Below are positions 38,930 through 61,555 of a stretch of 61,555 bases of DNA, piece after piece. How positions within the stretch are numbered: position 1 is the stretch's first letter; each line of letters begins with the position of its first letter. The notes under the pieces were generated by a model, which worked only from the letters and a program-made list of their open reading frames with translations, was not told the origin of the DNA and did not search any database. The position numbers and the translations under genes were made by a program. Origin of the DNA: a virus; IMG/VR virus record IMGVR_UViG_3300032246_000804, positions 1-61,555 of that record, one strand, 5' to 3'.

Positions 38930-38938
38930 AAGATTTTT

Positions 38939-39015: not shown

Positions 39016-39216
39016 AATTCTCGTTACTACTTTCGTTAAAGTAGCGTTTGATTAGCGAGAGAGATCCGGTGGCAGAAAACCGTTAGCGAGTGTAACCCAC
39101 TCAGACTCTGATAGGCAGTTATCTTTCTGCACACAGGTACCAGATAAAAAAGATGGACAGAGTAACCGCTCAATTAAGGGCTGGCGTGGAAAACCAGTAG
39201 CTTATCCTAATTTGGT
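39012..39216 (+). ncRNA. Inter-tRNA structured module 3
   Basis: ACCAAATT (39012-39019), including the CCA of tRNA-Leu, pairs with AATTTGGT (39209-39216), which runs into the next tRNA. Inside, CTCGTTA/TAGCGAG (39020-39026/39053-39059) closes CTACTTT-CGTT-AAAGTAG (39027-39044). GAGTG/CACTC and GCTGG/CCAG-type stems follow. No ORF or complete tRNA was found in these ~190 bases. Confidence 0.55.
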
Positions 39217-39289
39217 CTTAAAGTGTTCATGGACGCACGACGGCTTGTCACGCCGTAAGAGTGGGGATCGTTACCCCCTAAGACCGCCA
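39214..39289 (+). tRNA. tRNA-Asp (anticodon GTC)
   Basis: Acceptor GGTCTTA/TAAGACC, discriminator G, loop TTGTCAC on ACGGC/GCCGT, encoded CCA. Confidence 0.94.
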
Positions 39290-39295
39290 ATTTAT

Positions 39296-39330
39296 GGAGA
39301 AGCGGATGCTACGGCATCTGTTATCCACCA
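39296..39330 (+). other. CCA-ended minihelix between tRNA-Asp and tRNA-Ile
   Basis: GGATGC-TACG-GCATCT closes a hairpin inside GGA...TCC, and the segment ends in ACCA like a tRNA. It has the size of an acceptor-T-arm minihelix but lacks tRNA arms; it may be a tRNA remnant or a small stable RNA. Confidence 0.45.
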
Positions 39331-39336
39331 AGTTTT

Positions 39337-39411
39337 GCTGATGTAGCTCAGAGGAAGAGCATTCGCTTGATAAGCGAAAGGCCGACATTTCGAAATTGTC
39401 CATCAGTACCA
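39337..39411 (+). tRNA. tRNA-Ile (anticodon GAT)
   Basis: Acceptor GCTGATG/CATCAGT, loop TTGATAA on TTCGC/GCGAA, encoded CCA. Confidence 0.94.
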
Positions 39412-39418
39412 AGTTTTA

Positions 39419-39502
39419 GGAGTGGATGCTCTAATGGTAGGGCAGCAGGCTGTAACCCTGTGGCCGCAAGGCAAGTAGGTTCGATCCCTACCCACTCCAC
39501 CA
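39419..39502 (+). tRNA. tRNA-Tyr (anticodon GTA)
   Basis: Type II tRNA; acceptor GGAGTGG/CCACTCC, loop CTGTAAC on CAGG/CCTG, encoded CCA. Confidence 0.95.
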
Positions 39503-39509
39503 AGTTTTA

Positions 39510-39583
39510 GCCCTATTAGTATAATGGTATTACACCTGTTTTGTAATCAGGTTACGGCAGTTCGATTCTGTCATGGGGCACCA
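39510..39583 (+). tRNA. tRNA-Thr (anticodon TGT)
   Basis: Acceptor GCCCTAT/ATGGGGC, loop TTTGTAA, encoded CCA. The innermost anticodon-stem pair is T-T. Confidence 0.92.
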
Positions 39584-39592
39584 AGTTTTTAT

Positions 39593-39659
39593 GCGGTAAG
39601 GTATTAACTGTCTGAGGGTCCACCTTAGAAGTGTTGTGAAAATCAATATTACCGCTCCA
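39593..39659 (+). other. tRNA-like sequence without D arm (Gly-like TCC)
   Basis: A perfect seven-pair acceptor GCGGTAA/TTACCGC with T discriminator and CCA. CTGAG/CTTAG holds a seven-base loop GGTCCAC (anticodon position TCC, but base 33 is G). The T-arm position pairs TGTTG/CAATA with loop TGAAAAT instead of TTCGANN. Only 12 bases replace the D arm. Probably a degenerate or special tRNA. Confidence 0.5.
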
Positions 39660-39666
39660 GTTTTAT

Positions 39667-39744
39667 CCGTGTGTAGCGCAGTCTGGTTAGCGCATCTGCT
39701 TTGGGAGCAGAGGGTCGGGAGTTCGAATCTCTCCACACGGACCA
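39667..39744 (+). tRNA. tRNA-Pro (anticodon TGG)
   Basis: Acceptor CCGTGTG/CACACGG, loop TTTGGGA on TCTGC/GCAGA, encoded CCA. Confidence 0.95.
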
Positions 39745-39759
39745 AGTTTTTTTGAATAT

Positions 39760-39835
39760 TCCGGTGAAGCAAACTAGGTGTGGGCAGAGGACTGTTAATC
39801 CTTGAAGCCAGGTTCGAATCCTGGGACCGGAGCCA
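39760..39835 (+). tRNA. tRNA-Asn (anticodon GTT)
   Basis: Acceptor TCCGGTG/GACCGGA with a G-G mismatch at the inner pair, loop CTGTTAA on AGGA/TCCT, encoded CCA. Confidence 0.9.
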
Positions 39836-39840
39836 ATTAT

Positions 39841-39915
39841 GGGCTGTTAGTGATAGTGGTAGCACAGGGGCTTTGCAAGCCTTAGGCGGGAGTTCGATTC
39901 TCCCACGGTCCACCA
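39841..39915 (+). tRNA. tRNA-Ala (anticodon TGC)
   Basis: Acceptor GGGCTGT/ACGGTCC including a G-U at position 3-70, the classic alanine identity element; loop TTTGCAA; encoded CCA. Confidence 0.95.
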
Positions 39916-39922
39916 TTTTTTA

Positions 39923-39997
39923 GGTGATATGACGTAGATGGATGCGTAGCGGTTTCATAAGCCGATGAGGAAGGCTCGGTACCTTCTATCACCACCA
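39923..39997 (+). tRNA. tRNA with anticodon CAT (second; Met or Ile2)
   Basis: Acceptor GGTGATA/TATCACC, loop TTCATAA on CGGT/GCCG, T arm GAAGG-CTCGGTA-CCTTC, encoded CCA. Confidence 0.88.
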
Positions 39998-39999
39998 GT

Positions 40000-40159
40000 T
40001 TTGTAGTAGGAGCAGTGCCTAGTGGGAAGGGCAATCAGAGGCCTTTAAAAACAAAGTAGTAAAAGTCTTTATATCAAAAAGATGAGTATCGAAAAGCCTT
40101 TATGATACACGGAGTAGCGGGAGGGGGTGATGCCCTGATGTGTCTACACCGGCTACAAA
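40000..40159 (+). ncRNA. Inter-tRNA structured module 4
   Basis: TTTGTAG (40000-40006) pairs with CTACAAA (40153-40159). Inside are TGCC/GGCA and GTATC/GATAC helices and a GC-rich 3' part. No tRNA or convincing ORF is present in this ~160-base stretch. Confidence 0.5.
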
Positions 40160-40166
40160 TTTATTT

Positions 40167-40244
40167 GCGCCTTTAGTTCAACTGGATAGAACACCGGGCT
40201 ACGAACCCGTGAGGTTGGGAGTTCAAATCTCTCAGGGCGCACCA
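40167..40244 (+). tRNA. tRNA-Arg (anticodon ACG)
   Basis: Acceptor GCGCCTT/AGGGCGC, loop CTACGAA on CGGG/CCCG, encoded CCA. A34 is normally edited to inosine by host TadA. Confidence 0.94.
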
Positions 40245-40260
40245 TTTTTAGGAGTTAAAT

Positions 40261-40434
40261 ATGAATGAAGCAGGTAAAGGATCTTCACCTAGACCAAAAA
40301 ATGTTTCTGATGAAGAATATGCAAATCGTTGGGATGCAATCTTTCAAAGAGACAAACGTGTAGAAGAAGACCAACAAAATGAAGATGAAGAATTTGATCG
40401 TATTAGTTTAAATTCAAAAAAATTAAGTCAGTAA
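40261..40434 (+). CDS. Small conserved phage protein (GKGSSPRP motif)
   Basis: A 57-residue protein between two tRNAs, with AGGAG nine bases before ATG. The start MNEAGKGSSPRP followed by EYANRWDAIF is a pattern seen in many phage small proteins (GKGSxPRP...xNWDxIF). The C-terminal half is acidic. Function unknown. Confidence 0.75.
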   Translation: MNEAGKGSSPRPKNVSDEEYANRWDAIFQRDKRVEEDQQNEDEEFDRISLNSKKLSQ

Positions 40435-40435
40435 T

Positions 40436-40509
40436 GTCTCTCTGGTGTAATGGCAGCACTACGGTCTCCAAAATCGTAAGTGAGGGTTCGAGTCCTTCGG
40501 GGGATGCCA
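40436..40509 (+). tRNA. tRNA-Trp (anticodon CCA)
   Basis: Acceptor GTCTCTC/GGGGGAT (three G-U pairs), discriminator G, loop CTCCAAA on ACGGT/ATCGT, encoded CCA. Confidence 0.92.
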
Positions 40510-40525
40510 ATAAAAGAAAGTTAAT

Positions 40526-41017
40526 ATGAAAAAATTTAATTTGGATGAAGTAAAATCATTTATTACGAAACAAGGACCTGATACTAAAGTTTATCTTGGT
40601 GCAGACTCCGAACGTATGCGTATTGATGGTGTATGGTATGCAGATTACGCTTTAGCAGTTGTTGTTCATATTGATGGCCGTCATGGTTGTAAGATTTTTG
40701 GTTTTGTTGACCGTGAATTGGATTATGACCACAAGAAAAGCAAACCTGCAATGCGTCTGATGACAGAAGTTTATAAAGTTTCTGCTTTGTTCCAAGAAAT
40801 GCAAGATGTATTAGAAGACCGTCATGTTGAAGTTCATTTGGACCTAAACAAATCTGACGAACACGGTTCTTCTTGTGTCGTTCAACAAGCAATTGGTTAT
40901 ATCAAAGGTACATGTAACATGACACCAATGGTTAAACCAGATGCTCCTGCTGCTTCTTTCTGTGCAGACCGTTTAAAACGGATTCTAGCAGAACAAGAAT
41001 TAGCAGAAGCTCAGTAA
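40526..41017 (+). CDS. RNase H-like YkuK/DUF458-type protein
   Basis: A 163-residue protein between tRNA-Trp and tRNA-Gly. VYLGADSERM near residue 23, KIFGFVDRELDYDHKKSKPAMR near 55, VEVHLDLNKSDEHGS near 100 and GYIKGTCNMTPMVKPDAPAAS near 122, then CADR, give the conserved Asp residues of the RNase H fold. In bacteria this family is uncharacterised but predicted to cleave RNA. Its placement within the tRNA array invites a role in tRNA processing or turnover, which is inference. Confidence 0.75.
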   Translation: MKKFNLDEVKSFITKQGPDTKVYLGADSERMRIDGVWYADYALAVVVHIDGRHGCKIFGFVDRELDYDHKKSKPAMRLMTEVYKVSALFQEMQDVLEDRHVEVHLDLNKSDEHGSSCVVQQAIGYIKGTCNMTPMVKPDAPAASFCADRLKRILAEQELAEAQ

Positions 41018-41023
41018 GTATAA

Positions 41024-41097
41024 GCGGGTATGATGTAAAGGTAGCCTGTGACCTTGCCAAGGTTAGTGTGAGAGTTCGATTCTCTCTACCCGCTCCA
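41024..41097 (+). tRNA. tRNA-Gly (anticodon GCC)
   Basis: Acceptor GCGGGTA/TACCCGC, discriminator T, loop TTGCCAA, encoded CCA. Confidence 0.94.
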
Positions 41098-41105
41098 GTT
41101 TTTAT

Positions 41106-41180
41106 GTGGTTGTTAGTTTAGTGGCAAAACCGCGGGTTGTGATTCCGCTATCACGGGTTCGATTCCCGTACATCCACCCA
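41106..41180 (+). tRNA. tRNA-His (anticodon GTG)
   Basis: G at 41106 serves as the histidine-specific G-1 opposite C73. Loop TTGTGAT on GCGGG/TCCGC; encoded CCA. The fourth acceptor pair is T-T. Confidence 0.92.
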
Positions 41181-41182
41181 AT

Positions 41183-41256
41183 GCCTTGTTAGCTCAGCGG
41201 TAGAGCGCCCTCCTTACAAGTGGGATGTCGGCGGTTCGATCCCGTCACAAGGTACC
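41183..41256 (+). tRNA. tRNA-Val (anticodon TAC)
   Basis: Acceptor GCCTTGT/ACAAGGT, loop CTTACAA, encoded CCA. One T-T mismatch in the anticodon stem. Confidence 0.93.
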
Positions 41257-41272
41257 AATAATCGCCTTTGTT

Positions 41273-41301
41273 GACGGCGTACAATGAGATAAATTGTCAA
41301 C
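41273..41301 (+). other. Inverted repeat between tRNA-Val and tRNA-Thr
   Basis: GTTGAC (41273-41278) and GTCAAC (41296-41301) flank a nested ACAAT/ATTGT hairpin. It may be another processing or regulatory hairpin; no promoter is convincing here. Confidence 0.45.
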
Positions 41302-41306
41302 AACTT

Positions 41307-41380
41307 GCTCTTATAGTATAATGGCATTACACGTCCTTGGTAAGGATGAAACACAAGTTCAATTCTTGTTAAGAGCACCA
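41307..41380 (+). tRNA. tRNA-Thr (anticodon GGT)
   Basis: Acceptor GCTCTTA/TAAGAGC, loop TTGGTAA on CGTCC/GGATG, encoded CCA. Confidence 0.94.
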
Positions 41381-41385
41381 ATTTA

Positions 41386-41461
41386 GCAACTTTAGCTGAT
41401 GTGGTCATAGCGGCGGTCTGAAGAACCGTTGAAAGAGGTTCGATTCCTCTAGGTTGCACCA
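41386..41461 (+). tRNA. tRNA-Phe (anticodon GAA)
   Basis: Acceptor GCAACTT/AGGTTGC, loop CTGAAGA on GCGGT/ACCGT, encoded CCA. Confidence 0.93.
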
Positions 41462-41462
41462 A

Positions 41463-41537
41463 GTCTTTGTAGTTCAACGGATAGAACGCATTCCTCCTAA
41501 GAATGAGATACAGGCTCGATTCCTGTCGGAGACACCA
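41463..41537 (+). tRNA. tRNA-Arg (anticodon CCT)
   Basis: Acceptor GTCTTTG/CGGAGAC, loop CTCCTAA on CATTC/GAATG, encoded CCA. Confidence 0.94.
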
Positions 41538-41559
41538 ATGGTATTAATATAAAATATAC

Positions 41560-41588
41560 TTGACAAATTACACTTAACTTGATATAAT
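41560..41588 (+). promoter_or_regulatory. Third sigma70-type promoter in the tRNA block
   Basis: TTGACA (41560-41565) and TATAAT (41583-41588), 17-base spacing. The spacer region 41565-41581 is the exact reverse complement of the 17-base leader repeat at 38090 and 38645. The tRNA starts only ten bases after the -10. Confidence 0.82.
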
Positions 41589-41597
41589 GTACGAAAT

Positions 41598-41684
41598 GCG
41601 ACTGTGGCGTAATTGGTAGCCGCAACAGACTTAAAATCTGTCGCTCGAGAGGGCGTACCGGTTCGAGTCCGGTCAGTCGCACCA
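41598..41684 (+). tRNA. tRNA-Leu (anticodon TAA)
   Basis: Type II tRNA with a normal long variable arm; acceptor GCGACTG/CAGTCGC, loop CTTAAAA on CAGA/TCTG, encoded CCA. Confidence 0.95.
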
Positions 41685-41702
41685 AAGTCACATATATAAT
41701 AT

Positions 41703-41779
41703 AGCAGAGTATGGAAGAGGTCTATCCGCTTGGTCTCATAAGCCAAGAATCGCAGGTTCAAATCCTGCCTCTGCAACCA
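41703..41779 (+). tRNA. tRNA with anticodon CAT (third; unpaired 1-72)
   Basis: GCAGAG/CTCTGC pairs, but A1 faces A72, an unpaired end like that of initiator tRNAs. Loop CTCATAA on TTGGT/GCCAA; the stem lacks the three G-C pairs of standard initiators. Encoded CCA. Confidence 0.88.
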
Positions 41780-41783
41780 ACAT

Positions 41784-41857
41784 GCGGGATTAGTTTAATG
41801 GTAAAATTAGAGATTTCCAATCTCCAGTCATCAGTTCGATTCTGATATCCCGCTCCA
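41784..41857 (+). tRNA. tRNA-Gly (anticodon TCC)
   Basis: Acceptor GCGGGAT/ATCCCGC, discriminator T, loop TTTCCAA on GAGA/TCTC, encoded CCA. Confidence 0.94.
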
Positions 41858-50276: not shown

Positions 50277-50984
50277 ATGACAGCAACAGTGATTATACCA
50301 ACAACAGGCGCACCTGAACTCCGCAAAGCTCTTGAAAGTGTTTTAACTCAAAAATACAACACACAATGTTATGTTGTCTGTGATGGTGAACAATATGAGG
50401 GCAAAGTTAAAGTTATTACTGATGAATTTCGTGGTAATCAAAATTTAAAAATAACAACATTACCAATCAATGTTGGTGCCAATGGTTTTTACGGTCACCG
50501 AATCTATGCAGCTTTCACACACTTAATCAACACAGACTATGTACTTTATCTCGACCAGGATTGTTGGTTTGAACCTAATCATGTACTGTCTTGTATAGAA
50601 AAGATTGAAAAAGATAAACTTGACTGGTCTTATTCTTTAAGACTAATCACAGACAAAAATGGTAACTACATATGTGAAGATAATTGTGAATCTTTAGGTA
50701 AATGGCAAACTTATCATGGAATCAATCATATAGATACTAATAACTATTGCATTCCTACTAAAACTGCGATAAGATTATCTTCTGTTTGGCATGGCGGATG
50801 GGGACAAGATAGAGTATGGTTTCAAACATTGGCAACATACTTTAAAAACTTTGATTGCACTGGTGAATATACAGTCAATTATCGCGTAGATGGTAATGCT
50901 GGTTCCGTAAATGCCGATTTCTTTAAGAATGGTAATAAGATAATGTATGAGAAATACAAAGGTGTTTTTCCTTGGAAAAAATGA
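50277..50984 (+). CDS. Glycosyltransferase family 2-like protein
   Basis: A 235-residue GT-A enzyme. TVIIPTTGAPELRKALESVL at the start, PINVGANGFYGHRIYAAF near residue 62, and YVLYLDQDCWFEP near 88 (DxD) define the fold; SVWHGGWGQDRVWFQTL near 168 fits the acceptor/catalytic region. First enzyme of the sugar island; it starts three bases after the DruA-like gene. Confidence 0.8.
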   Translation: MTATVIIPTTGAPELRKALESVLTQKYNTQCYVVCDGEQYEGKVKVITDEFRGNQNLKITTLPINVGANGFYGHRIYAAFTHLINTDYVLYLDQDCWFEPNHVLSCIEKIEKDKLDWSYSLRLITDKNGNYICEDNCESLGKWQTYHGINHIDTNNYCIPTKTAIRLSSVWHGGWGQDRVWFQTLATYFKNFDCTGEYTVNYRVDGNAGSVNADFFKNGNKIMYEKYKGVFPWKK

Positions 50985-50994
50985 TAGGAGTATT

Positions 50995-51843
50995 ATGAAA
51001 AATTTGATTATAGGTGGATGCACAAACTATGGAATTGACCAACTAAAACCTTGGGTGCTTTCAGTTAATGAAACAATGCCTGATGCAGATAAAGTAATGT
51101 GTGTTGGTAATGCATCCGATGAAACTAGGAAATGGCTTGTTGATAATAATTTTAAATTGATTAACATACCACAAATGAATGTTCCTGTTCATGTATTAAG
51201 ATTCTTATCGATTTATGAATATCTAAGAGAACATTGGCAAGAGTATGTATATGTTGTTACAACTGATGTGAAAGATGTTTATTTCCAAAAAAATCCATTT
51301 GCAATGTTGGAAAGAAAGATACATTATAAATTAATTGCTGGATCGGAAGGTATGTTATACAAAGACGAACCTTGGGGTAATGATAACCTAATGCAAGCTT
51401 ATGGACCTTATGTACATGATTTGAATAAAAACAACAAAATCTATAATGTTGGAACGATAGGTGGTTCTTCAGAATATGTTAAGGACTTAGTATTCAATAT
51501 ATTTACAAATGCAATACACAGACCTATTGCTATTTGTGACCAAGCAGTATATAATGTTCTGATACAAACTCAACCATATAAAGATTGTACATTTTTTGCT
51601 GACCAAAGTGATGCATGGGCATGCCAAGCTGGAACAACAGTTGATCCATCAAAAATTGCCAGTTTTAGACCTTTTCTTACCGAGAAAGAACCAATATTTG
51701 AAAATGGTTTAGTTAAGACATGTGATGGTGTTACTTTTAGTATTGTACACCAATATGATAGAGTTCCTCAATGGAAGAAGTTTGTACAAGGAAAGTATGG
51801 ACAAAATGATGAAACAGAATTTTTTACTTATAGGACAACATAA
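50995..51843 (+). CDS. Putative glycosyltransferase of unknown specificity
   Basis: A 282-residue protein. NLIIGGCTNYGIDQLKPWVLS at the start, DADKVMCVGNAS and YVVTTDVKDVYFQKNPF near residue 95 resemble nucleotide-sugar transferases (DxxD metal site). VGTIGGSSEYVKDLV and ICDQAVYNVLI near 170 are common in such enzymes. ATG 50995 has TAGGAG upstream; the frame also opens earlier. It ends one base over the methyltransferase start. Confidence 0.6.
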   Translation: MKNLIIGGCTNYGIDQLKPWVLSVNETMPDADKVMCVGNASDETRKWLVDNNFKLINIPQMNVPVHVLRFLSIYEYLREHWQEYVYVVTTDVKDVYFQKNPFAMLERKIHYKLIAGSEGMLYKDEPWGNDNLMQAYGPYVHDLNKNNKIYNVGTIGGSSEYVKDLVFNIFTNAIHRPIAICDQAVYNVLIQTQPYKDCTFFADQSDAWACQAGTTVDPSKIASFRPFLTEKEPIFENGLVKTCDGVTFSIVHQYDRVPQWKKFVQGKYGQNDETEFFTYRTT

Positions 51844-52412
51844 TGAGCGATACAATTACTTTTAATACTGAAACACAAGCTTTTGGAATGCAACAACCAG
51901 TATTCAAATGTTCTGGTTTTGGATTAGGAAATCTAATCAAAGATATGGTAGATGCAAAAGGTCTTGAGATTGGTTGCGATATTGGCGATACTTCTAATTT
52001 TTTACTAGATGTTAATCCAACATTACATTTAACCTCTATTGATCCATATGTTAACTATGTTGATTGGAATGGTAATCCATTAAATGAACGTGAAGAAATT
52101 TTCAATAGGGCAATGAATAGATTGGCAGGTTACAGTAATCGTTTCGACCTTGTTCGTCAATATTCTGATGAATCTGTTACTCTATTTGATGATGAACAAT
52201 TTGATTTCATCTTTATTGATGGCCTACATACTTACGACCAGTTAAGCAAAGATTGTGATAACTATTATTCCAAATTAAAAACTGGCGGTATCTTTGCAGG
52301 ACATGATTATACTGCAATCGAAGGTGTGAATCGTGCCTGTAAAGAGTTTGCTGAAAAAATGGGCAAACAAATTTTAACAACAGAATGTGATGTATGGTAT
52401 TGGTATAAATGA
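51843..52412 (+). CDS. SAM-dependent class I methyltransferase
   Basis: A 189-residue enzyme. Motif I is GLEIGCDIGDTSNFL near residue 40, the acidic loop is TSIDPYVNY near 65, and FDFIFIDGLHTYDQLSKDCD near 120 followed by LKTGGIFAGHDY is typical of the Methyltransf_24 type associated with glycan and small-molecule modification. It lies inside the sugar-transfer genes and overlaps both neighbours. Confidence 0.85.
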   Translation: MSDTITFNTETQAFGMQQPVFKCSGFGLGNLIKDMVDAKGLEIGCDIGDTSNFLLDVNPTLHLTSIDPYVNYVDWNGNPLNEREEIFNRAMNRLAGYSNRFDLVRQYSDESVTLFDDEQFDFIFIDGLHTYDQLSKDCDNYYSKLKTGGIFAGHDYTAIEGVNRACKEFAEKMGKQILTTECDVWYWYK

Positions 52413-53098
52413 AAAATTGTATAGTATTGTCTGGTCAATATAGGACCTTTGCGAAAACGAAAACTAACATCAAAAATTTTATTGATGTTAACGAAATGGA
52501 TGTATTCTGCCACCTATGGTCAACCGACCCGGCAGAGTATGTTGACATTGTTGATACTTTAAAACCAAAATCAATCATCGTAGAGGACTGGACAAAATAT
52601 GAAGATGAATTTCTTCTTATAGAAGAAAGAGCAAAAGTTGCTAATCCAAAACCAATGACAATCGATAGCATTTCCAAAAATGCATCAATGAACTATAGCC
52701 GTAAGATTGCTTTTGAATCTGTTATTGGTGAATATGATACTTTAACTTATTGTCGGTATGATATTGGTTTTAGTTACATTTTTAAATTTGATAAAGTTGA
52801 TAGAGTGTTAACACCTGAAGCCGAATCGTACAATTTGATTTCTGACATCTTTGCAATAATGCCTTTTGGAGATGCTAAAGGTTATTTCTTATATGATAAT
52901 TATGAAAAGATACATTCAACACAGTTTGATTCAGATTTTGAGAATTGGTTAAAAATGGTTAAAGAATATCCAGAAAAAGATATTATAACACATAAAGAAC
53001 AAAGATATTGTCCACACATGACACTATTGAGAAACTTACACAATAATGGTGTTAAGTATAATACAATGGCAAACTTACCAGTGTTTTTACAAAGATGA
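52409..53098 (+). CDS. Putative glycosyltransferase (SGQ-R family, copy 1)
   Basis: A 229-residue protein. CIVLSGQYRTFAKTKTNIKN, MDVFCHLWSTDP and YDTLTYCRYDIGFS follow the pattern of a phage and bacterial family annotated as glycosyltransferase-like. The next gene has the same plan: SGQxR, then H-x-W, then Y-D-x-x-x-x-R-x-D, indicating an old tandem duplication. Metal-binding acidic residues fit the R-Y-D site. Donor and acceptor unknown. Confidence 0.6.
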   Translation: MKNCIVLSGQYRTFAKTKTNIKNFIDVNEMDVFCHLWSTDPAEYVDIVDTLKPKSIIVEDWTKYEDEFLLIEERAKVANPKPMTIDSISKNASMNYSRKIAFESVIGEYDTLTYCRYDIGFSYIFKFDKVDRVLTPEAESYNLISDIFAIMPFGDAKGYFLYDNYEKIHSTQFDSDFENWLKMVKEYPEKDIITHKEQRYCPHMTLLRNLHNNGVKYNTMANLPVFLQR

Positions 53099-53784
53099 AA
53101 ATAGCATTATGTTTTTCTGGCCAAGCACGTTCAGTGAAATCTGGTTATGAGTATTATAAAAAGAATCTACTAAACAGATGTGATGTTGATGTTTATTTCC
53201 ATACTTGGGACTGTGATGACGTAAAAGATTTGCGGAATTTGTATCAACCTGTACACTATCTTTATGAAAAATCATTTGATAATGGTGCAGATGCAAAATA
53301 TACAAAAACACCTAATGCTCAAAAATATCCTCCAAGATTCACATACAATATGTTTTATTCTATGTCGAAAGTTAATCAGTTATTGAAAAACACTGATAGA
53401 CATTATGATTGGGTAATTCGTAGTAGAACAGACTATGCATTGAATGTGCAAATACCTTTTGAAGAATTAGACAATACTAAATTATACATTCCAAATTGCA
53501 GAATGGTTCCTGAAAGAGATTTTGGAAATGACCAGTTTGCATTTGGTTCACTCAACACAATGTTGAAATATATGTCAACCTTTGATAATATAGATAAGTA
53601 TTATGATGCAGGTGCTCAATTTATTGGTGAAGATTTGATGCAAGCTAACTTACATGAATATGACTTGCGTGGAGAAAATCTTGTCTATGTTAATATGAAT
53701 AATCCTTTTCCACCAGGACTACACAATGGAACTTGGCATTCTCTAATTCGTGATGATTATGACAAGTGGACCAAAACTAATTAA
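53095..53784 (+). CDS. Putative glycosyltransferase (SGQ-R family, copy 2)
   Basis: A 229-residue protein, the same length as its upstream neighbour. IALCFSGQARSVKSGYEYYK, VDVYFHTWDCDDV and YDWVIRSRTDYALN give the shared family layout. The middle (TYNMFYSMSKVNQLL) and GNDQFAFGSLNTMLKYMS fit capsular-type transferases. It overlaps the previous gene by four bases and the next by about 26. Confidence 0.6.
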   Translation: MKIALCFSGQARSVKSGYEYYKKNLLNRCDVDVYFHTWDCDDVKDLRNLYQPVHYLYEKSFDNGADAKYTKTPNAQKYPPRFTYNMFYSMSKVNQLLKNTDRHYDWVIRSRTDYALNVQIPFEELDNTKLYIPNCRMVPERDFGNDQFAFGSLNTMLKYMSTFDNIDKYYDAGAQFIGEDLMQANLHEYDLRGENLVYVNMNNPFPPGLHNGTWHSLIRDDYDKWTKTN

Positions 53785-54511
53785 AGAACTTTCAGGACAT
53801 TCAGGCAGTAAAATATATCTCATGGAAGATGATACTGGCCTATTTGTTCGTAAAGTTGGAAACACAAACAGAAATTTTGAAAGATTGAAAACTCTTGATG
53901 AGTTTCTGCGTGTTCCTAAGATTTACAATTATCATTCAGATATACTCGACATGGAGTATATACATGGATTAGACATAAAAACATATTTGTTATCCAACAA
54001 CACAAAATCATTAGAGAAGTTTTTACTCAAGACAATAAACACACTGAAAGCTTTCAGTTATGGTTCTTTTGATTTTACTGAAGTGTACAATAAAAAACTT
54101 TCTTGGATAGATTCTGCAACAGATTTACCTTTCACGAAAGAAGAATTGATTGACAGACTTCCTAAGATTCTTCCTAAAACTTTATATCACGGCGATTTAA
54201 CATTAGAGAACATCATATATTCAGAAGATGGTTTTTATACAATAGACCCTGTAACAATTGAATATGAATCTTATGTGTTCGATATTGCCAAATTGAGACA
54301 GGATTTAGAGTGCCGTTGGTTTCTGAGGAAAGAAAAGATTAGACTAGGTGCAAAGTTAAAAGATTTACAAAACAAAATCCTTGAACTTTATCCTGAATCC
54401 AATGATGACAACCTACTGATATTGATGTTGTTGAGGGTGTACCTACATACAGAAAAGAATGATTTAAATTATGAATTCATTATGAAAGAGATTAATAGAT
54501 TATGGAAATAA
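53759..54511 (+). CDS. APH/choline-kinase-like small-molecule kinase
   Basis: About 250 residues; in-frame GTG 53750 and ATG 53753 are alternative starts. The Brenner-type loop HGDLTLENIIYSED near residue 145 and FYTIDPVTIEYESYVFDIAKL near 160 supply catalytic Asp, Asn and the D-P metal site. Such kinases phosphorylate choline, ethanolamine, sugars or aminoglycosides. Being next to a nucleotidyltransferase suggests production of an activated phospho-substituent. Confidence 0.75.
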   Translation: MTSGPKLIKELSGHSGSKIYLMEDDTGLFVRKVGNTNRNFERLKTLDEFLRVPKIYNYHSDILDMEYIHGLDIKTYLLSNNTKSLEKFLLKTINTLKAFSYGSFDFTEVYNKKLSWIDSATDLPFTKEELIDRLPKILPKTLYHGDLTLENIIYSEDGFYTIDPVTIEYESYVFDIAKLRQDLECRWFLRKEKIRLGAKLKDLQNKILELYPESNDDNLLILMLLRVYLHTEKNDLNYEFIMKEINRLWK

Positions 54512-55527
54512 TTGTACCTGCTGCTGGTCTTTCTAGTAGATTTCCTGGAATGAAACCAAAATATCTTCTATATGATTATAATCATAGGTTGATGTTACAA
54601 TCGGCATTAGAACCTTATTCAGAATACAATATCACAATTGGTATTTTAAAGGATCATGATATTGCACACCATGCTTCAGACTTCATTAAACATGAATTTG
54701 GTGACCGCATAAAAATTGTAGTCTTAGATGAAGTTACTAATGGACCTGCTGATACTGTTTATCAAATTTTGAAACGTGCAAACATTCCAGACACCGAAGA
54801 ATTCTTAATTAAAGACTGTGATAGTTTCTTTGAACATGAGATAACCAAAGGTAATTATGTTTGCGTTTCTGATATTTCAGAACATGAAGTTTTGAATAAA
54901 CTTGGTTCTAAGAGTTTTATCACTTCTAATGAACAAGGCATTATTACCAATATTATTGAAAAGAAAGTTGTTTCTAATAAGTTTTGTGTTGGTGGTTATA
55001 AGTTTGATTCTGTCGGCCACTACAAAACAACATTTGAATCCATTTCATCAGAAAAAGAAATATTTGTTTCCGATGTCATCTCCATGATGTTGCAAAGCAA
55101 TATAGTATTTACTGAAAAACTAGTAACTGATTATGTTGATGTTGGGACTGCACAAGAATGGTTCAAGTATAATGATAAACCAGTAATCTTCTGTGATATT
55201 GATGGAACTATCGTCAAAGCACAATCTAGAGTTGGTGTTAACACATATGCTGATGAACCTATTCCATTGGAAAAGAATGTCAAAAGATTATTACAACTCC
55301 AAGAAGATGGTGCTCAATTTGTTTTTACGACAGCAAGAAAGTATGAATATGTGAGACAAACAAGACATATGTTACATAAGTTGGGATTTTTAGAATACAT
55401 TCTAATCATGGAACTACAGAACTCTAAACGTATATTGATAAATGACTTTAATAGATCAAATCCTTTTCCAAGGGCTGAAGCAATCAATCTCGAACGGAAT
55501 AGTGACACACTAGATTTTTACATATGA
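54502..55527 (+). CDS. Nucleotidyltransferase fused to HAD phosphatase
   Basis: A 341-residue two-domain enzyme. Residues 1-~225 form a sugar/phospho-alcohol nucleotidyltransferase: IIVPAAGLSSRFPGMKPKYLL, EFLIKDCDSFF near 94 and VDVGTAQEW near 213. Residues ~226-341 are a HAD domain: IFCDIDGTIVKAQ near 229, FVFTTARKYEYV near 270 and RILINDF near 309. It likely activates the product of the upstream kinase. Overlaps both neighbours. Confidence 0.8.
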   Translation: MEIIVPAAGLSSRFPGMKPKYLLYDYNHRLMLQSALEPYSEYNITIGILKDHDIAHHASDFIKHEFGDRIKIVVLDEVTNGPADTVYQILKRANIPDTEEFLIKDCDSFFEHEITKGNYVCVSDISEHEVLNKLGSKSFITSNEQGIITNIIEKKVVSNKFCVGGYKFDSVGHYKTTFESISSEKEIFVSDVISMMLQSNIVFTEKLVTDYVDVGTAQEWFKYNDKPVIFCDIDGTIVKAQSRVGVNTYADEPIPLEKNVKRLLQLQEDGAQFVFTTARKYEYVRQTRHMLHKLGFLEYILIMELQNSKRILINDFNRSNPFPRAEAINLERNSDTLDFYI

Positions 55528-56216
55528 ATATTATACCAGATAAGAACCTATTCTTAGTCACATCTGCAATTAAACCTTTAGATAGTGTATTCTTTACGGA
55601 TGAACAAAGATTTCAACAAACAATTGATACATTGATTTCAATTAGAAAAAAGATACCAGAATCTATAATCGTTTTAGCTGAAGCTTCATTTAATCCACTA
55701 TCGGATGATGAGAAAATTAAATTACAACAATTCTGCAACGGATACATAGATTTATCTACACAACCGGATGTTAAAGGATTTTCTGGTTTAAAATTAAAAT
55801 CACAAGCTGAAACTGCTTTACTCTTTCACAGCCTTCTGACACTGAAACAACAACCATTCATGCGAGAAGTTAAAAGAATTTTCAAATTTTCAGGCAGAAC
55901 AATTTTAGATGATAGTTTTAATTTAAGTGACTATGATAGTTTGTTTGGTAAATATGTGTTCAAAAAACGCATTCCAACTTGGATGCCTAAAGTAATTTAT
56001 AGTGCCAGTGACCTACTAATCACTAGAATGTATTCGTTCTGTCCTTCTCTAATTGATAATTATCTAGAAGTTTTAAGTAAAAATTTTGATATGTTGAACC
56101 ATATGGACACAGAACATGCTCATTTTGTCAATATTCCAAAAAAATACTTAGTGGAGTTTGATAGAATACATTGTACAGGATGGTTATCAGGCAACGGCCA
56201 AACCGAAAGTTATTGA
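55524..56216 (+). CDS. Glycosyltransferase-like protein, end of sugar island
   Basis: A 230-residue protein. FLVTSAIKPLDSVFFTDEQR, RFQQTIDTLISIRKKIPES and IIVLAEASFNPLS at the start recall glycosyltransferase-like proteins of T4-like phages. The motif order SGxxxL and FKFSGRTILDDSFN follows near residues 95-135. No DxD site is clear. It overlaps the fusion gene by four bases and is the last of the run of overlapping genes. Confidence 0.5.
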   Translation: MNIIPDKNLFLVTSAIKPLDSVFFTDEQRFQQTIDTLISIRKKIPESIIVLAEASFNPLSDDEKIKLQQFCNGYIDLSTQPDVKGFSGLKLKSQAETALLFHSLLTLKQQPFMREVKRIFKFSGRTILDDSFNLSDYDSLFGKYVFKKRIPTWMPKVIYSASDLLITRMYSFCPSLIDNYLEVLSKNFDMLNHMDTEHAHFVNIPKKYLVEFDRIHCTGWLSGNGQTESY

Positions 56217-56268: not shown

Positions 56269-56276
56269 TATAAATA
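56269..56276 (+). promoter_or_regulatory. Late promoter -10 motif TATAAATA
   Basis: A perfect late consensus in the 102-base gap before the His-rich gene cluster, 43 bases upstream of its first start. It indicates that the cluster is expressed late. Confidence 0.75.
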
Positions 56277-56318: not shown

Positions 56319-56765
56319 ATGAAAAGTTTTATCTCATTTTTAAAAGAAGAAGCGGAATCAGAAGGTTCGGCTTTAAAGCATATCCATCATGCAGAAGACC
56401 GTCCATTAATGCACGGCGCCGAAGGATTCGAACACGCACATGGCGCACTCATGCAAGCTCACGAACACATGAAAGCTAAGGCGCAAAATAGTAATTTGAC
56501 TATGAAATATGATGGTTCACCTGCAATTGTCTTTGGTCATCATCCAAAAACAGGTAAATTCTTTGTTGCTAGTAAGTCTGCATTCAACAAGACACCAAAA
56601 ATCAATCACACAGAAAAAGATATTGACAGAAACCATGGCCATGCGCCTGGACTTGCAGCAAAACTTAAAGCTGCTTTGAAACATTTACCTAAAGTAACAC
56701 CTAAGACTGGTGTATACCAAGGCGATATGATGCATTCTTCAGAGGATTTACACCACCATGACTAA
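56319..56765 (+). CDS. Nucleotidyltransferase/ligase-like protein, N-terminal frame
   Basis: A 148-residue frame. NLTMKYDGSPAIVFGHHPKTG near residue 59 contains KYDG, the KxDG lysine motif of ATP-dependent DNA/RNA ligases and capping enzymes, followed by GKFFVASKSAFNK and a GVYQGDMMHS strand. The next frame (56758) appears to continue the same protein. The N-terminus MKSFISFLKEEAESEG resembles T4 capsid-targeting sequences. Probably a late, packaged protein. Confidence 0.65.
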   Translation: MKSFISFLKEEAESEGSALKHIHHAEDRPLMHGAEGFEHAHGALMQAHEHMKAKAQNSNLTMKYDGSPAIVFGHHPKTGKFFVASKSAFNKTPKINHTEKDIDRNHGHAPGLAAKLKAALKHLPKVTPKTGVYQGDMMHSSEDLHHHD

Positions 56766-57513
56766 AAAAGTATCGTTTACTCCAAACACAATCACCTACA
56801 CTGCCAAAGGCGATGAGGCTAAAAAGATTGGTGCATCTAAAGTTGGTGTAGTAGTTCACACAAAATATCATGGTTCCGACATTGGTAATATGTCTGCACA
56901 CCATGATGTTGACCTTCATAACTTTAAACAACAAAAAGATGTTCATCACCACGGTGCAGAACACGATACTGCAAAAGTTGATTATCCATCACATGCACAA
57001 GATGAATTCCATAAGCACATGGCTGCAGCAAAAGCAATCCATGATACACATGGTGAGAAAATGTATCCTGCGACTGATAGGCACAGAGGCGAAAACACAC
57101 ATCTAACGACATACATCAACAAGACGGTTGACACTGGAGAAGTTCCTAGTGTGTCTGGATTAAAGAATCACATCACGACACAACATGCAAAGATGGCAGA
57201 TAAGGTTAAGACTGATAAATCCAAACAGGCAAAAATTGATGCAGGCAAAGAACACAATTCTCATATTGAGAAAAATAAAGAACATTATCAGAATCTTTTA
57301 ACTATGCATCACCACTTGGCGCAAGCTAAGAATACACTAGTTAAGCATTTAGAAGGCCATGAAGGCCACTATGAACATCACATTGGTGGTGTGAAATCTA
57401 AACCAGAAGGATTTGTGATTCACCATACACCAGAAGGTGGAAAAACTGAACCAACAAAGCTAGTAAATAGAGCAGAATTTGCAAAACAAAACAGACTAAA
57501 GGTGAGAAAATGA
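56758..57513 (+). CDS. Ligase-like protein, C-terminal frame
   Basis: A 251-residue His/Lys-rich protein whose ATG overlaps the end of the previous frame by eight bases in a different frame. KVSFTPNTITYTAKGDEA and KVGVVVHTKYHG continue the nucleotidyltransferase beta core expected after the KYDG part. The rest is helical and His-rich. It may be a separate chain made by coupled translation, or one gene joined by a +1 shift at GAC-TAA. Confidence 0.6.
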   Translation: MTKKVSFTPNTITYTAKGDEAKKIGASKVGVVVHTKYHGSDIGNMSAHHDVDLHNFKQQKDVHHHGAEHDTAKVDYPSHAQDEFHKHMAAAKAIHDTHGEKMYPATDRHRGENTHLTTYINKTVDTGEVPSVSGLKNHITTQHAKMADKVKTDKSKQAKIDAGKEHNSHIEKNKEHYQNLLTMHHHLAQAKNTLVKHLEGHEGHYEHHIGGVKSKPEGFVIHHTPEGGKTEPTKLVNRAEFAKQNRLKVRK

Positions 57514-58511
57514 TTTCACTACAGAGGAAAATTTGGTTAGATAGAGCTGGAATAGTAGAGCAAATCAATCAAATAAATGAAGCAAAAAGTGGTGTAAGTT
57601 ATAATGATGAACATGCTCATGCCAATATTTGGAACCATATGGTGGGTAAAGGAATTGCTCACGATAAACCTGCTATGATGAGAGAATTGGAAAAATCAAA
57701 AACAGATAAAACTCATCCTTTACATTTCAACAATGCTGAGGATAAAGGTTTCACTGGCGGTAAAAAAACAAAAGAAGCGGAACATAGTTATCATTCAGAA
57801 CATGAAACAGCTGTTCATACGATTCACGCTTTAGCTAGTCATCCAGATTTCAAAAAAGCTATAAAAGAAAAACATAAAGCAAAAGTTATGGGTGGAGAAA
57901 GAGGAACTGTATCAGATACATGGAAAAAACATGGAGCAACTAAAGGTGCAACATCTAAAGCCGATGTTTCAATCCATAATCCAAATGATAATAATCATGC
58001 AGGCCTTAAACTATCAATGAAAAAGGGCGGTGGTTCGCAATTAATGTCAGGTGGACCAGAAGAAAATAATGCAGTACATGACCATGCGGCTAGGGAAATG
58101 TTAAACAACCATCCAAAATATAAAAATTTACCGCAAAAAAAGAAAGATGAAATTCATTCGGGTATTATGAAAGATATGCATACAGTATCTAAACATTTGA
58201 ATGCTATGAAAACTTCTTCTAGGTCTGAAATGGAACACCATCGTGATATGGCTCAAAAAGCTATGAATTCAGCTCATGATAGACATCCTGAATTGAATCA
58301 TTTTGTTAGAAAAGAAGCTACTACAGGTGAAGGTAAATTTGGAAAAGGTTCAGCTCAAGCAGCTTCTCATTTAGTAAAATCATCAACTGCGGGTAAAGAA
58401 GCAAAAGTTTCACATGTGGATCAACAAAACTATGAGGGACCTCGTCCTAGAATTGCACTACCTAAGGGTGAAGGAAGATCCGGAAATGTAAAATCGGACG
58501 AAAGGGCATAA
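57510..58511 (+). CDS. His/Lys-rich protein with a nuclease-like core
   Basis: A 333-residue protein overlapping the previous gene by four bases. The centre has GTVSDTWKKHG, SKADVSIHNPND and GLKLSMKKGGGSQLMSGG, a D...K-x-S-x-K pattern similar to PD-(D/E)XK-like proteins of T4-like phages. The N-terminus (IWLDRAGIVEQINQINEAKSG) ends in I-N-E-A, a candidate gp21 site. The rest is disordered and charged. Confidence 0.45.
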   Translation: MISLQRKIWLDRAGIVEQINQINEAKSGVSYNDEHAHANIWNHMVGKGIAHDKPAMMRELEKSKTDKTHPLHFNNAEDKGFTGGKKTKEAEHSYHSEHETAVHTIHALASHPDFKKAIKEKHKAKVMGGERGTVSDTWKKHGATKGATSKADVSIHNPNDNNHAGLKLSMKKGGGSQLMSGGPEENNAVHDHAAREMLNNHPKYKNLPQKKKDEIHSGIMKDMHTVSKHLNAMKTSSRSEMEHHRDMAQKAMNSAHDRHPELNHFVRKEATTGEGKFGKGSAQAASHLVKSSTAGKEAKVSHVDQQNYEGPRPRIALPKGEGRSGNVKSDERA

Positions 58512-58513
58512 AA

Positions 58514-59551
58514 ATGATAGACATTCAAAAGAAACTTTATTGGGAAAGAGCCGGCATATCTTTAGGTGAAGATGGTTTGCCAATCTTATCTGAAGGCCGC
58601 GGTAAAATTTCTGCTTCAGGTGCAGATGCTGAATCTCATATTAAAAAATACATAATGCCGCATGTTGGTTCAAAAACTCCCACTCACACATTAGCTTCTG
58701 AACATGATGATTTACCTAAAGGCTCACATGTAAAGATTCACGGTGTTGAAAAACATTATAATCTTGTCACAGGTAAACATCAAACTCATGTTCATGTTGA
58801 AGATGAAGTTGGTAATCATCACACAATGCTTGCTTCAAAATTGCATAAACCAGGTGAAGCTCCAGAAAATAAGGGACATGATTATGAGAACAAATTTGTT
58901 GCAAGACTAAAACATCATGGTATTATGCCACACCACATGTCTGGTGCAGGATCCACCGGCGGTACAGATTTTGCTGTGCATAATAAGAAAAAAGGTAAAT
59001 TTCATGCAGGTTCAGTTACCGGTGGATTACTTAATGGTGAAACCAAAAACGGTGTTACAGCTGCAATGGGCCAACTAACAATTCATCACACAAAAGAAAA
59101 AGGTTGGCATGTTGGTGATGCAGCTAGAAAGAAAAGACCTGAATATGCAAAACATATTGAAAAATCAGGTGTTCTTGCTCACATGAACAAACATGAACCA
59201 GAACCTGAAAAATCTGCATCAACAGAATCTGGCCGAGCAAAAACAACTGTAATCAAACATCCAAATTTGCACCCAGCTGAAGCTTATTTGAAAGACCATC
59301 ATGTACATGTGTTGCAAGTTGGCGGCCATGGTACTTACCGAGTTGGCGAAAAAGATGAAACCGGCCATGGTTTACCTAAGATTTCAGGTAAAGGTGAATG
59401 GAGAATCAGAGAAAAACAAAAAGGTAACAAGTCTGCTCGTACGGTAGCTTTCCATCCTGAAGGTAAAAAAGGTTTAAATAAGAGTCATGTTGATTTAGAT
59501 AATGACCAACATATGGAAAAATTCAAGAAAACTTTGGGCCACACAAACTAA
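58514..59551 (+). CDS. His-rich protein with PD-(D/E)XK-like core
   Basis: A 345-residue protein. Residues ~117-190 have KGHDYENKFVARLKHHG (Glu helix), GAGSTGGTDFAVHNKKKG and GLLNGETKNGVTAAMGQL, giving D...E-T-K, the classic nuclease core. The N-terminus (LYWERAGISLGEDGLPILSEGRG) has L-S-E-G, fitting the gp21 cleavage rule. The C-terminus is basic and Gly-rich. Likely expressed late and possibly carried in the head. Confidence 0.5.
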   Translation: MIDIQKKLYWERAGISLGEDGLPILSEGRGKISASGADAESHIKKYIMPHVGSKTPTHTLASEHDDLPKGSHVKIHGVEKHYNLVTGKHQTHVHVEDEVGNHHTMLASKLHKPGEAPENKGHDYENKFVARLKHHGIMPHHMSGAGSTGGTDFAVHNKKKGKFHAGSVTGGLLNGETKNGVTAAMGQLTIHHTKEKGWHVGDAARKKRPEYAKHIEKSGVLAHMNKHEPEPEKSASTESGRAKTTVIKHPNLHPAEAYLKDHHVHVLQVGGHGTYRVGEKDETGHGLPKISGKGEWRIREKQKGNKSARTVAFHPEGKKGLNKSHVDLDNDQHMEKFKKTLGHTN

Positions 59552-61309
59552 ATGAAATCATTTTTAGAAGTTATATTAGAAAAAAAAACTGGTGATGTTC
59601 ACCATGTAATGTCTTTTGGTCGGATGAATCCTCCGACCACTGGTCATTTGAAACTTATCGACAAAGTAAAAGACGTTGCAAAGAAACAAGGTGCAGACCA
59701 TTCTGTTGTCGTTTCACATTCACAAGACAAAAAGAAGAATCCTCTTTCTGATGTACAGAAATTGAAACATTTGAAACGTTATTCTCCAGATACAAATTTT
59801 GAAGCATCTTCTAAAGAGAAACCAACATTCTTACAACATGCAGCACACTTACACAAACAAGGTGTAACACACTTACATATGGTTGTGGGTTCCGATCGTG
59901 TTAAAGAAATGCATAACAAGTTACACCAGTACAATGGAACACATCCTGGTGCTCTATATAATTTCAAGAAAATAACTGTTCATTCTGCTGGTCAGAGAGA
60001 CCCGGACGCCGAAGGAACAGAAGGAATGTCAGGCACCAAGATGCGTGAACATGCCAAGAATAATGATTTAAAATCATTTAGAAAAGGTGTTCCAGCGCAT
60101 GTACCTGAACATCACGCAAAAGAATTAATGCATGATGTTCGTAAGGGCATGGGATTACATGAAGATTATAGTTATGGTCGACATAAAGCAATTTTCGTGA
60201 CCGGTGGTCCAGGTTCAGGCAAAGACATTATTGTCCGTGAATGTATTGCTTCACAAAAGATTGTTGAACACAATTTCTCACAAGTTTTGGATATTTTAAA
60301 TGATAAACACAAGCTTGCAATGAGGTCTATGAATCCAAAATATGAATCAGTAAGAACTCGTGGTCCATTGATTGTTAATGGACCAGCAGACGATTTGGAA
60401 AAAATTGGCCGCATCAAAGAAGAACTAGAAGAACTTGGATATAAAACAATGATGGTGTTTGTTGATACAACCGACACAGTAAGTAAAGAAAGAAACACAT
60501 TCTTATCTAAGATGATGATGGAGTCTATTCGCCAAGACAAATGGCAAAAAGCACAACAGAATGCAAAACAACTTTCAGAAATGTTTACTGATTTCGTAAA
60601 GTTTGATAACTCTGGTGACTTGGAATCAAAAGAAGAAGATATTACAGAAACTTACAAACTGACAAAAGAGTTTTTATCTTCCAGTTCCATTATACAATCT
60701 TTGCAAAACGGCAATCGTTTCAAAGGTTTATATGAAAGTTCTAAGACTAAATTTAAAGTATTGAAAGACAATAACAGTCCATTCATGCAGTTTCAAAAGA
60801 AATTAGGTAAACAAGATGATGTGCGTGATGGTGATGAAAAATCAAATAGCACATATGCGTTTAGAACATACGCAGAAGCTAATTTCAATAAAGACAAAGA
60901 AACTGATAAGAAAAAAACTGCACTATCTGCTGGTCGCGTTGGTGATCCTGGAGGAATAGGACCAACAATGAATACAAGAAGTGGTGGCGGTTCTAGTTCC
61001 GCTTCAATTGGTGGTGCTGGATTAGGAAATCAAACATATAATGAAGCAGAAGAATTTGATAATAAGAATGTTGCTGCACCAGGTTTAGATTCAAAACCAA
61101 AAAATGTTAATCCAAATCCATTAGGCGAAAAGAAAAGAATTAAAGGTTTTAAAGAATCTGTATATTCAGGTGAAACTGGAAATGAAATGGGAGTTGTAGG
61201 TGTTATGAGTGGTGCGATGAACAAAGAACCTCTAGTTAAACCTACAGATAAATATATACAATCGGGTATTACGATTAAAAAATCAAAAGAAAAATCAGGA
61301 GCAAAATAA
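59552..61309 (+). CDS. Bifunctional nucleotidyltransferase and P-loop kinase
   Basis: A 585-residue protein. Residues ~15-175 form an HxGH-type nucleotidyltransferase: SFGRMNPPTTGH at 21-32 and MSGTKMRE at 159-166 (the ISxTxxR-type motif). Residues ~211-380 form a P-loop kinase with GGPGSGKD at 218-225. The arrangement resembles NadR (NMN adenylyltransferase plus nucleoside kinase), although the substrate is not evident. The C-terminal 200 residues are Gly/Ser/Lys-rich and disordered. The N-terminus is MKSFLEVILEKK. Confidence 0.75.
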   Translation: MKSFLEVILEKKTGDVHHVMSFGRMNPPTTGHLKLIDKVKDVAKKQGADHSVVVSHSQDKKKNPLSDVQKLKHLKRYSPDTNFEASSKEKPTFLQHAAHLHKQGVTHLHMVVGSDRVKEMHNKLHQYNGTHPGALYNFKKITVHSAGQRDPDAEGTEGMSGTKMREHAKNNDLKSFRKGVPAHVPEHHAKELMHDVRKGMGLHEDYSYGRHKAIFVTGGPGSGKDIIVRECIASQKIVEHNFSQVLDILNDKHKLAMRSMNPKYESVRTRGPLIVNGPADDLEKIGRIKEELEELGYKTMMVFVDTTDTVSKERNTFLSKMMMESIRQDKWQKAQQNAKQLSEMFTDFVKFDNSGDLESKEEDITETYKLTKEFLSSSSIIQSLQNGNRFKGLYESSKTKFKVLKDNNSPFMQFQKKLGKQDDVRDGDEKSNSTYAFRTYAEANFNKDKETDKKKTALSAGRVGDPGGIGPTMNTRSGGGSSSASIGGAGLGNQTYNEAEEFDNKNVAAPGLDSKPKNVNPNPLGEKKRIKGFKESVYSGETGNEMGVVGVMSGAMNKEPLVKPTDKYIQSGITIKKSKEKSGAK

Positions 61310-61555
61310 TGTTTTCAAAAAATAACGTAACACAATCAATGATAGATGCAGTACAGTCTGTTTTAGTCGAAGACAAGAAATTGCTTCTTGAACCTGAAAA
61401 GAAAAAAGAAGAAAAAGAAGATTTAAAAGGCAACCAAGGAAAATTGGACAAGAATCACAATGGTAAAATAGATCCAGAAGACTTCAAACTTCTAAGAATG
61501 AAAAAAGAAGAAAAAGATGATGATAGTATGTACACAACTAAAGCACAAGCAAAGA
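61309..61555 (+). CDS. EF-hand-like phage protein (3' partial)
   Basis: The frame starts with ATG overlapping the previous stop and runs off the window; 82 residues are visible. It contains LDKNHNGKIDPEDFKLLR, an EF-hand/dockerin-like calcium loop (D-x-N-x-N-G-x-I-x-x-x-D). The N-terminus is helical and followed by a Glu/Lys-rich stretch. Such loops occur in T4-like phage proteins of unknown role. Confidence 0.7.
   Translation, partial: MFSKNNVTQSMIDAVQSVLVEDKKLLLEPEKKKEEKEDLKGNQGKLDKNHNGKIDPEDFKLLRMKKEEKDDDSMYTTKAQAK

Follow-up and report, generated by a model that had tools for sequence, protein, structure and literature searches.

The last operon-like block of genes in the 61,555-base linear IMG/VR record IMGVR_UViG_3300032246_000804 of a T4-like myophage (hereafter the window, all of whose features given below lie on the plus strand) appears to encode a set of enzymes that travel inside the phage head. 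Four of its genes, here called p1, p3, p4 and p5, very probably specify internal head proteins that are docked through an N-terminal leader, trimmed by the prohead protease gp21 and most likely delivered together with the DNA. Packaging of the leader-bearing enzymes in this phage is strongly inferred from sequence, and their injection is the most likely outcome by analogy with the T4 internal proteins and Alt. An initial annotation of the window had described consecutive late genes for histidine-rich enzymes with T4-like capsid-targeting N-termini. All four N-termini that it quoted were located at the starts of p1 (MKSFISFLKEEA), p3 (MISLQRKIWLDRAGIVEQINQINEAKSG), p4 (MIDIQKKLYWERAGISLGEDGLPILSEGRG) and p5 (MKSFLEVILEKK), and these genes do belong to one block, but it had passed over p2 (56758–57513), which follows p1 and has no leader.

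The ten N-terminal residues of the T4 internal protein IPIII (MKTYQEFIAE) are enough for targeting, with residues 4 and 7 acting mainly in targeting and residues 8 and 10 in processing, and gp21 cleaves after L/I-x-E; a review has proposed this capsid-targeting sequence (CTS) as a general route in T4-like phages (PMC9026906). The leaders of p1 (56319–56348; MKSFISFLKE↓E, with F4, F7, L8 and E10) and p5 (59552–59581; MKSFLEVILE↓K, with F4, V7, I8 and E10) agree with all four mapped positions and are predicted to be capsid-targeting, with a cut after E10. The likeness to T4 that had been claimed for all four N-termini thus holds for p1 and p5, but p3 and p4 have long leaders rather than the canonical ten residues: 24 residues ending INE↓AKSG in p3 (57510–57581; predicted cut after E24) and 27 ending LSE↓GRGK in p4 (58514–58594; predicted cut after E27). 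An [LI]xE motif nonetheless closes the leader in all four proteins (LKE in p1, INE in p3, LSE in p4 and ILE in p5).

When the strict CTS pattern M..[FY]..[FYLIVM][LIVTM].E was applied at start sites, p1 and p5 were the only matches in the window, against 0.07–0.15 expected (P 0.0025–0.010). Pooled over nine T4-like genomes the pattern is found at 25 starts, whereas internal start-codon sites in these genomes lead one to expect 1.7 and shuffled N-termini 2.6 (nominal P about 1e-16 to 1e-20, with shared ancestry ignored). A looser leader pattern (R2) was dropped, as it was not usefully enriched (2 observed in the window versus 2.9 expected). That the resemblance to the T4 CTS is without function, reflecting chance or descent, is hardly credible: the motif is short and some matches come from one family, but the enrichment over expectation leads us to reject a chance origin, unrelated leaders occur at a fixed junction, and virion proteomics of relatives agrees with the pattern. 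Strict matches in G001, G002, Melnitz and C48C1 lie in or near the neighbourhood of the DUF6267 and cytidylyltransferase genes, the families of p1 and p5, with one exception in C48C1. In T4 itself the pattern is found in IPII, IPIII and the uncharacterised gene 61.1. The 54-residue product of 61.1 (L093, 18966–19130) starts MKTFKEFIKE↓D and may have escaped notice as an internal head protein; no paper treating it as such was found in the literature searched.

The leaders are variable and in part exchangeable. Within DUF6267 a strict leader is present in 15 of 24 clusters (<70% identity), with letters that vary from one to the next (MIEFKQFITE, MLGFNSFLTE, MITFAEYLAE, MRTFTTFLTE and MDNFKTFVVE). 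In the p3 family [LI]xE stands at the junction, with its invariant E24, in all 27 homologues, the most distant at about 20% identity, versus only 1.2% of body positions; a relative on contig L013 has MQKFRQFLLE before VKSGNYNDEHAH where the window counterpart has MISLQ...INQINE before AKSGVSYNDEHAH. Most relatives of p4 carry canonical or near-canonical leaders (MKTFKSFLITE, MITFKSYLLE and MITFKSFLINE) before a GRG/GRA body, and the window lineage has an unrelated 27-residue leader, MIDIQKKLYWERAGISLGEDGLPILSE, before the conserved GRGK body, the junction being common to homologues with canonical and with other leaders; identity in this family is 40% in the leader versus 73% in the body. Common descent alone would not readily account for the unrelated leaders exchanged in p3 and p4, and the best reading is that cargo choice evolves through swapping of leaders and genes. 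In the structure models, residues 20–27 of p3, around the predicted cut, are the sole stretch with pLDDT <50, and residues 1–16 are the sole reported stretch of this kind in DUF6267, which predicts disorder at the cut site and in the leader, respectively. We also note a natural fusion (L220, 3695–4900) of a p4-like N-terminal domain with a p3 nuclease body, whose leader ends ISE.

Since the leaders of p3 and p4 are non-canonical in the window and canonical in relatives, we claim for these two proteins only that they would work like CTS clients. Packaging might be confined to p1 and p5, p3 and p4 having lost their targeting and become ordinary late cytoplasmic nucleases, as the mismatch of their leaders to the CTS positions would allow. 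We consider this decidedly unlikely, given that p3 and p4 have a common leader type, QKK.YWERAG...[IL]xE, with the cut motif kept at the junction, and that the propeptide of T4 IPI is also long, at 19 residues.

Virion mass spectrometry of two cyanophages is in keeping with packaging. Among the S-SM1 virion proteins found by Sullivan et al. (2010) is the cytidylyltransferase T4-GC190 (PMC3037559). The corresponding gene, SSM1_190, encodes a homologue of p5 starting MKKFSAFLNE↓AE, and no other annotated S-SM1 gene has the strict pattern. From S-CREM2 virions 52 proteins were detected (PMC10665884). Exactly three S-CREM2 genes have the strict pattern, encoding a SAM hydrolase (MKDFDSFLEE), an APH/ChoK-like kinase (MKRFDAFLTE; the in-frame start used is the annotated one) and a cytidylyltransferase (MKNFSSFLTE), and all three products are in the virion list (P 0.013, or 0.002 among non-structural proteins); the near misses ORF13 and ORF136 were detected as well. 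Absent from that list are a looser-pattern match at 139029–139196 (gp175) and the leaderless DUF6267 protein of S-CREM2 (gp87). The DUF6267 orthologue of S-SM1 (T4-GC71) has no leader. The leader could conceivably be an interaction helix serving another late complex or the membrane, the detection in cyanophage virions being contamination; the S-CREM2 authors allow co-purification, and cleavage data are limited to T4 members. Contamination, however, would need to favour leader-bearing non-structural proteins, three of three of which were detected, and an interaction helix alone leaves the [LI]xE at the junction unexplained, and we give this explanation very little weight. Another protein detected in S-CREM2 virions, the 'Cas9-like' nuclease gp12 (L284, 7704–10313), has a CTS-like LRFASFMAE↓AA at residues 17–25, and its true start may be downstream of the annotated one.

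The partners expected of CTS-bearing internal proteins, a gp21-type protease and a gp22-type scaffold, are both encoded in the window, where the portal, a prohead core-like protein, the protease, the scaffold and gp23 all lie at 15.4–21.3 kb. The core-like (gp67/68-like) protein (17076–17468; phrog_1064, E-value 0.0015) is followed by the gp21-type prohead protease that would remove the leaders (18036–18680; Peptidase_S77, E-value 4.9e-32), the gp22-type scaffold, their expected docking partner (18718–19920; PF25623, E-value 6.2e-74), and the major capsid protein gp23 (19960–21297; PF07068, E-value 4e-142). In the last, an LxE site (ALNE↓T) lies near where the cut is expected and is close to the T4 site FLTE, although the automatic alignment (T4, S-SM1 and S-CREM2) is gapped there.

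Several observations weigh against the packaging of these enzymes by a CTS route. The strict pattern is absent from 9 of 24 DUF6267 and 21 of 29 cytidylyltransferase clusters; HTVC008M has no match and P-HM2 has one elsewhere, and since the orthologues in these two phages lack a strict leader, this mode of packaging is not universal. The window leaders of p3 and p4 do not have the targeting residues at positions 4 and 7. The support from virion mass spectrometry comes from the cyanophages S-SM1 and S-CREM2 only; the S-CREM2 matches are few in number, and its authors were unable to exclude co-purification in caesium chloride (CsCl) (PMC10665884). Packaged nucleases of the kind predicted would adjoin the phage's own DNA, and the window, G001 and G002 yielded no methyltransferase of the Dam, C5 or N6/N4 families; nucleases stored in this way must be restrained or selective. 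The idea of a head-packaged enzyme set is still largely upheld by the CTS positions in p1 and p5, the presence of protease, scaffold and gp23, the junction motif and the p5 homologues in cyanophage virions, with corrections for the leaderless p2 and for the non-canonical leaders of p3 and p4.

The proteins p1 (56319–56765; E-value 1.3e-47) and p2 (E-value 7.8e-45) correspond to the first third and the rest, respectively, of one Pfam family, DUF6267 (PF19782). The start codon of p2 and the stop of p1 overlap (ATGACTAA), preceded by an AGAGGA site (56742–56765). This junction is identical in 11 contigs (the window and ten that were fetched) and the gene is also split in the long relatives G001, G002 and G004, which indicates a real gene split in the lineage; it is unsplit in G003 and in the cultured phages searched. 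Two separate chains are more likely than a fusion through programmed frameshifting, because the overlapping start has its own ribosome-binding-like site. The motif order in DUF6267 (KxDG, QGD, EGxV, K) is that of covalent nucleotidyltransferases such as RNA and DNA ligases and capping enzymes, with motifs I and III within p1 and IV and V within p2, and K63, D65, Q134-G135, E363-G364-V366 and K375 are invariant in 28 sequences. The spacing from EGxV to K resembles that of T4 Rnl1. A DUF6267 model (pLDDT 89) gave no PDB match below an E-value of 1e-3 in a fold search, although ligases and capping enzymes (1xdn, 9qw7, 4xrp, 4xru, 3rtx and 8w8e) recur among the top 50 at E-values of 1.4–4; 'ligase-like' is therefore a motif-level call. 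Counts of the co-occurrence of DUF6267 with p3, p4 and the cytidylyltransferase were left out of the evidence, the loci having been fetched with those proteins.

Searching the PDB with the sequences of DUF6267, p3, p4 and p5 returned nothing credible. The model of p3 (57510–58511; pLDDT 89) has MspI as its best and only significant structural match (E-value 7.4e-4, probability 1.00, TM-score 0.33/0.40), and D152 and S169-x-K171 are invariant, as befits a restriction-endonuclease fold with D..(E/N/S)xK; MspI has an arrangement similar to the D..(N/S)xK of p3. We predict from the model that p3 is an MspI-like PD-(D/E)xK nuclease. In p4 (58514–59551; phrog_26930, E-value 6.6e-12) D152, E176, K178 and Q187 (D..ExK..Q) are invariant in 18 sequences, and this motif makes it a putative nuclease; PDB and Pfam gave no match. 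The identity of p5 (59552–61309) as an NMNAT/cytidylyltransferase-like protein is indicated by a CTP_transf_like domain (PF01467, above the cut-off), by phrog_3041 (E-value 4.8e-66) and by retention of the GRMNPPTTGH signature; it also holds a P-loop kinase-like region and matches phrog_12810. The enzymatic classes first assigned to the block are thus supported unevenly, by the domain in p5 and the fold model of p3, with the ligase-like p1 plus p2 and the nuclease p4 being motif calls only.

The description of the proteins as histidine-rich proved correct, in that p1–p4 are the four His-richest open reading frames (ORFs) of at least 100 aa in both the window and G001 (8.4–13.1% versus means of 1.7–2.2%); p5 contains 4.1%. 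This enrichment (8–13%) is lineage-specific, being seen at 56319–59551 and at 114304–117536 in G001, with 1–2% in low-His orthologues. His-rich homologues of DUF6267 and p3 have about 7 points more His and 9–10 points fewer ILVFMWY than low-His ones, and many of the His residues occupy positions that are aromatic or aliphatic in the latter. Easier unfolding for tail passage and pH-dependent DNA binding in the head are both guesses as to the reason. The seven least hydrophobic window ORFs of at least 120 aa are p1–p5, the gp67/68-like protein and gp22. Such low hydrophobicity, together with a high content of Lys and His as in other prohead interior proteins of the window, would also suit packaged core or DNA-condensing proteins with inactive or incidental enzyme domains; T4 internal proteins are basic and touch DNA (PMC3012670), and three divergent DUF6267 members have weakened motifs I and III, reading KIDD and QGG. 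A purely structural role of this sort is nevertheless improbable, since catalytic-type residues are invariant across large divergence in DUF6267, p3 and p4 and the cytidylyltransferase signature is kept.

Late expression of the block is suggested by a T4-type late promoter element, TATAAATA (56269–56276), 50 nt upstream of p1. The element stands at −50 in eight close relatives, in which it is kept despite differing sequence farther upstream, and between −37 and −51 in three more distant relatives. It is judged by this conserved position because the octamer is not enriched by count in the window (5 observed versus 5.9 expected), and on that ground the genes are putatively late. Genes p3 and p4 form an optional cassette, p5 directly following p2 in G002. 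Beyond p5, p6 (61309–61555) encodes an EF-hand-like protein that runs off the end of the window and has relatives at 111707 in G001; LVE↓D near its start makes it a possible further client. Upstream of the block there is a run of overlapping genes (50277–56216) that includes one for a nucleotidyltransferase-like plus HAD protein (54502–55527), and different genes take the place of this run in G001 and G002. PADLOC returned no defence-system match.

We propose that late in infection p1, p3, p4 and p5 would be made as precursors whose leaders dock them within the prohead, in its gp22 scaffold core. The phage gp21 would then cleave after [LI]xE, leaving the mature enzymes in the head with the DNA, and on infection these would enter the host along with it, as do T4 Alt and IPI, and act before phage gene expression. 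The leaderless p2 may enter the head bound to p1, so that the two chains together reconstitute a ligase-like DUF6267 enzyme. A ligase-like enzyme, two predicted nucleases and a nucleotidyltransferase-kinase would point to nucleic acid or nucleotide targets in the first minutes. A more specific role in tRNA repair is conceivable because the window has 28 tRNA genes and relatives have leader-tagged tRNA enzymes: the split ligase-like enzyme, nucleotidyltransferase-kinase and nucleases would form a capsid-delivered repair kit undoing or forestalling host anticodon-nuclease defences on entry, with cargo that its many His and few hydrophobic residues would keep loosely folded for passage through the tail tube. 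We regard this version as speculative and on the whole unlikely. The tRNA genes (36665–41857) serve all 20 amino acids, which is unusually complete, and many of the ORFs listed there are probably tRNA genes spuriously read as coding. In relatives a leader also precedes members of other families, among them a CCA-adding tRNA nucleotidyltransferase, an NT5C phosphatase and a HAD protein that weakly resembles RNA-repair HADs; one CCA-adding enzyme (L086, 11741–13375) starts with the CTS-like leader MKPFKKFLYE on a contig that has a DUF6267 block.

The CTS–gp21 route and the presence of cytidylyltransferases in cyanophage virions were already known. This analysis adds DUF6267, the MspI-fold p3 and p4 as candidate CTS clients, as well as the exchange of leaders at the cut motif. 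Also new are the comparison with the virion proteomes published for two cyanophages, the division of a ligase-like gene such that only one part has a leader, and a His enrichment specific to the lineage. In the literature searched no paper mentions DUF6267, and capsid targeting and cyanophages are named together only in the T4 review (PMC9026906). Cyanophage virion proteomics has repeatedly yielded enzymes that the authors could not separate into cargo and contamination. A leader with mapped positions that can be read from sequence would allow one to forecast which enzymes are injected by the T4-like phages that abound in the sea and in fresh water, and the unknown families DUF6267, p3 and p4 become candidate first-minute effectors. 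If the proposal is true, protein delivery with phage heads could also draw on naturally occurring modular tags and large natural cargo enzymes from these phages.

Among known systems the T4 internal proteins IPI, IPII and IPIII come closest, sharing with p1 and p5 the ten-residue leader with an aromatic residue at 4, hydrophobic residues at 7–8, E10 and an L/I-x-E cut, and with the block as a whole predicted late expression, the gp21, gp22 and gp23 partners and optional, exchangeable cargo; they are, however, small and basic, whereas here the cargo would consist of large enzyme families, one client being split with the leader on one part. T4 Alt, an injected ADP-ribosyltransferase, is likewise a head-borne enzyme that gp21 processes and that is delivered along with the DNA, but enzyme and leader are unrelated to those described here and it is a single enzyme rather than an operon of nucleic-acid enzymes. 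The cytidylyltransferases of S-SM1 (T4-GC190) and S-CREM2 (ORF154) are homologous to p5, have the same leader type and were found by virion mass spectrometry; unlike in p5, a kinase region of the p5 type was not identified in them, and the available portions of those papers do not tie virion presence to the leader. MspI shares the fold predicted for p3 at 9% identity, and a partner methyltransferase was not found. The T4 RNA repair enzymes Rnl1 and Pnkp are expressed after infection and are not known to be packaged. The likeness to them lies in the KxDG, EGxV and Lys of DUF6267, which stand in ligase order, and in the P-loop kinase-like region of p5, although the fold match of DUF6267 is not significant, the best ligase having an E-value of 1.4.

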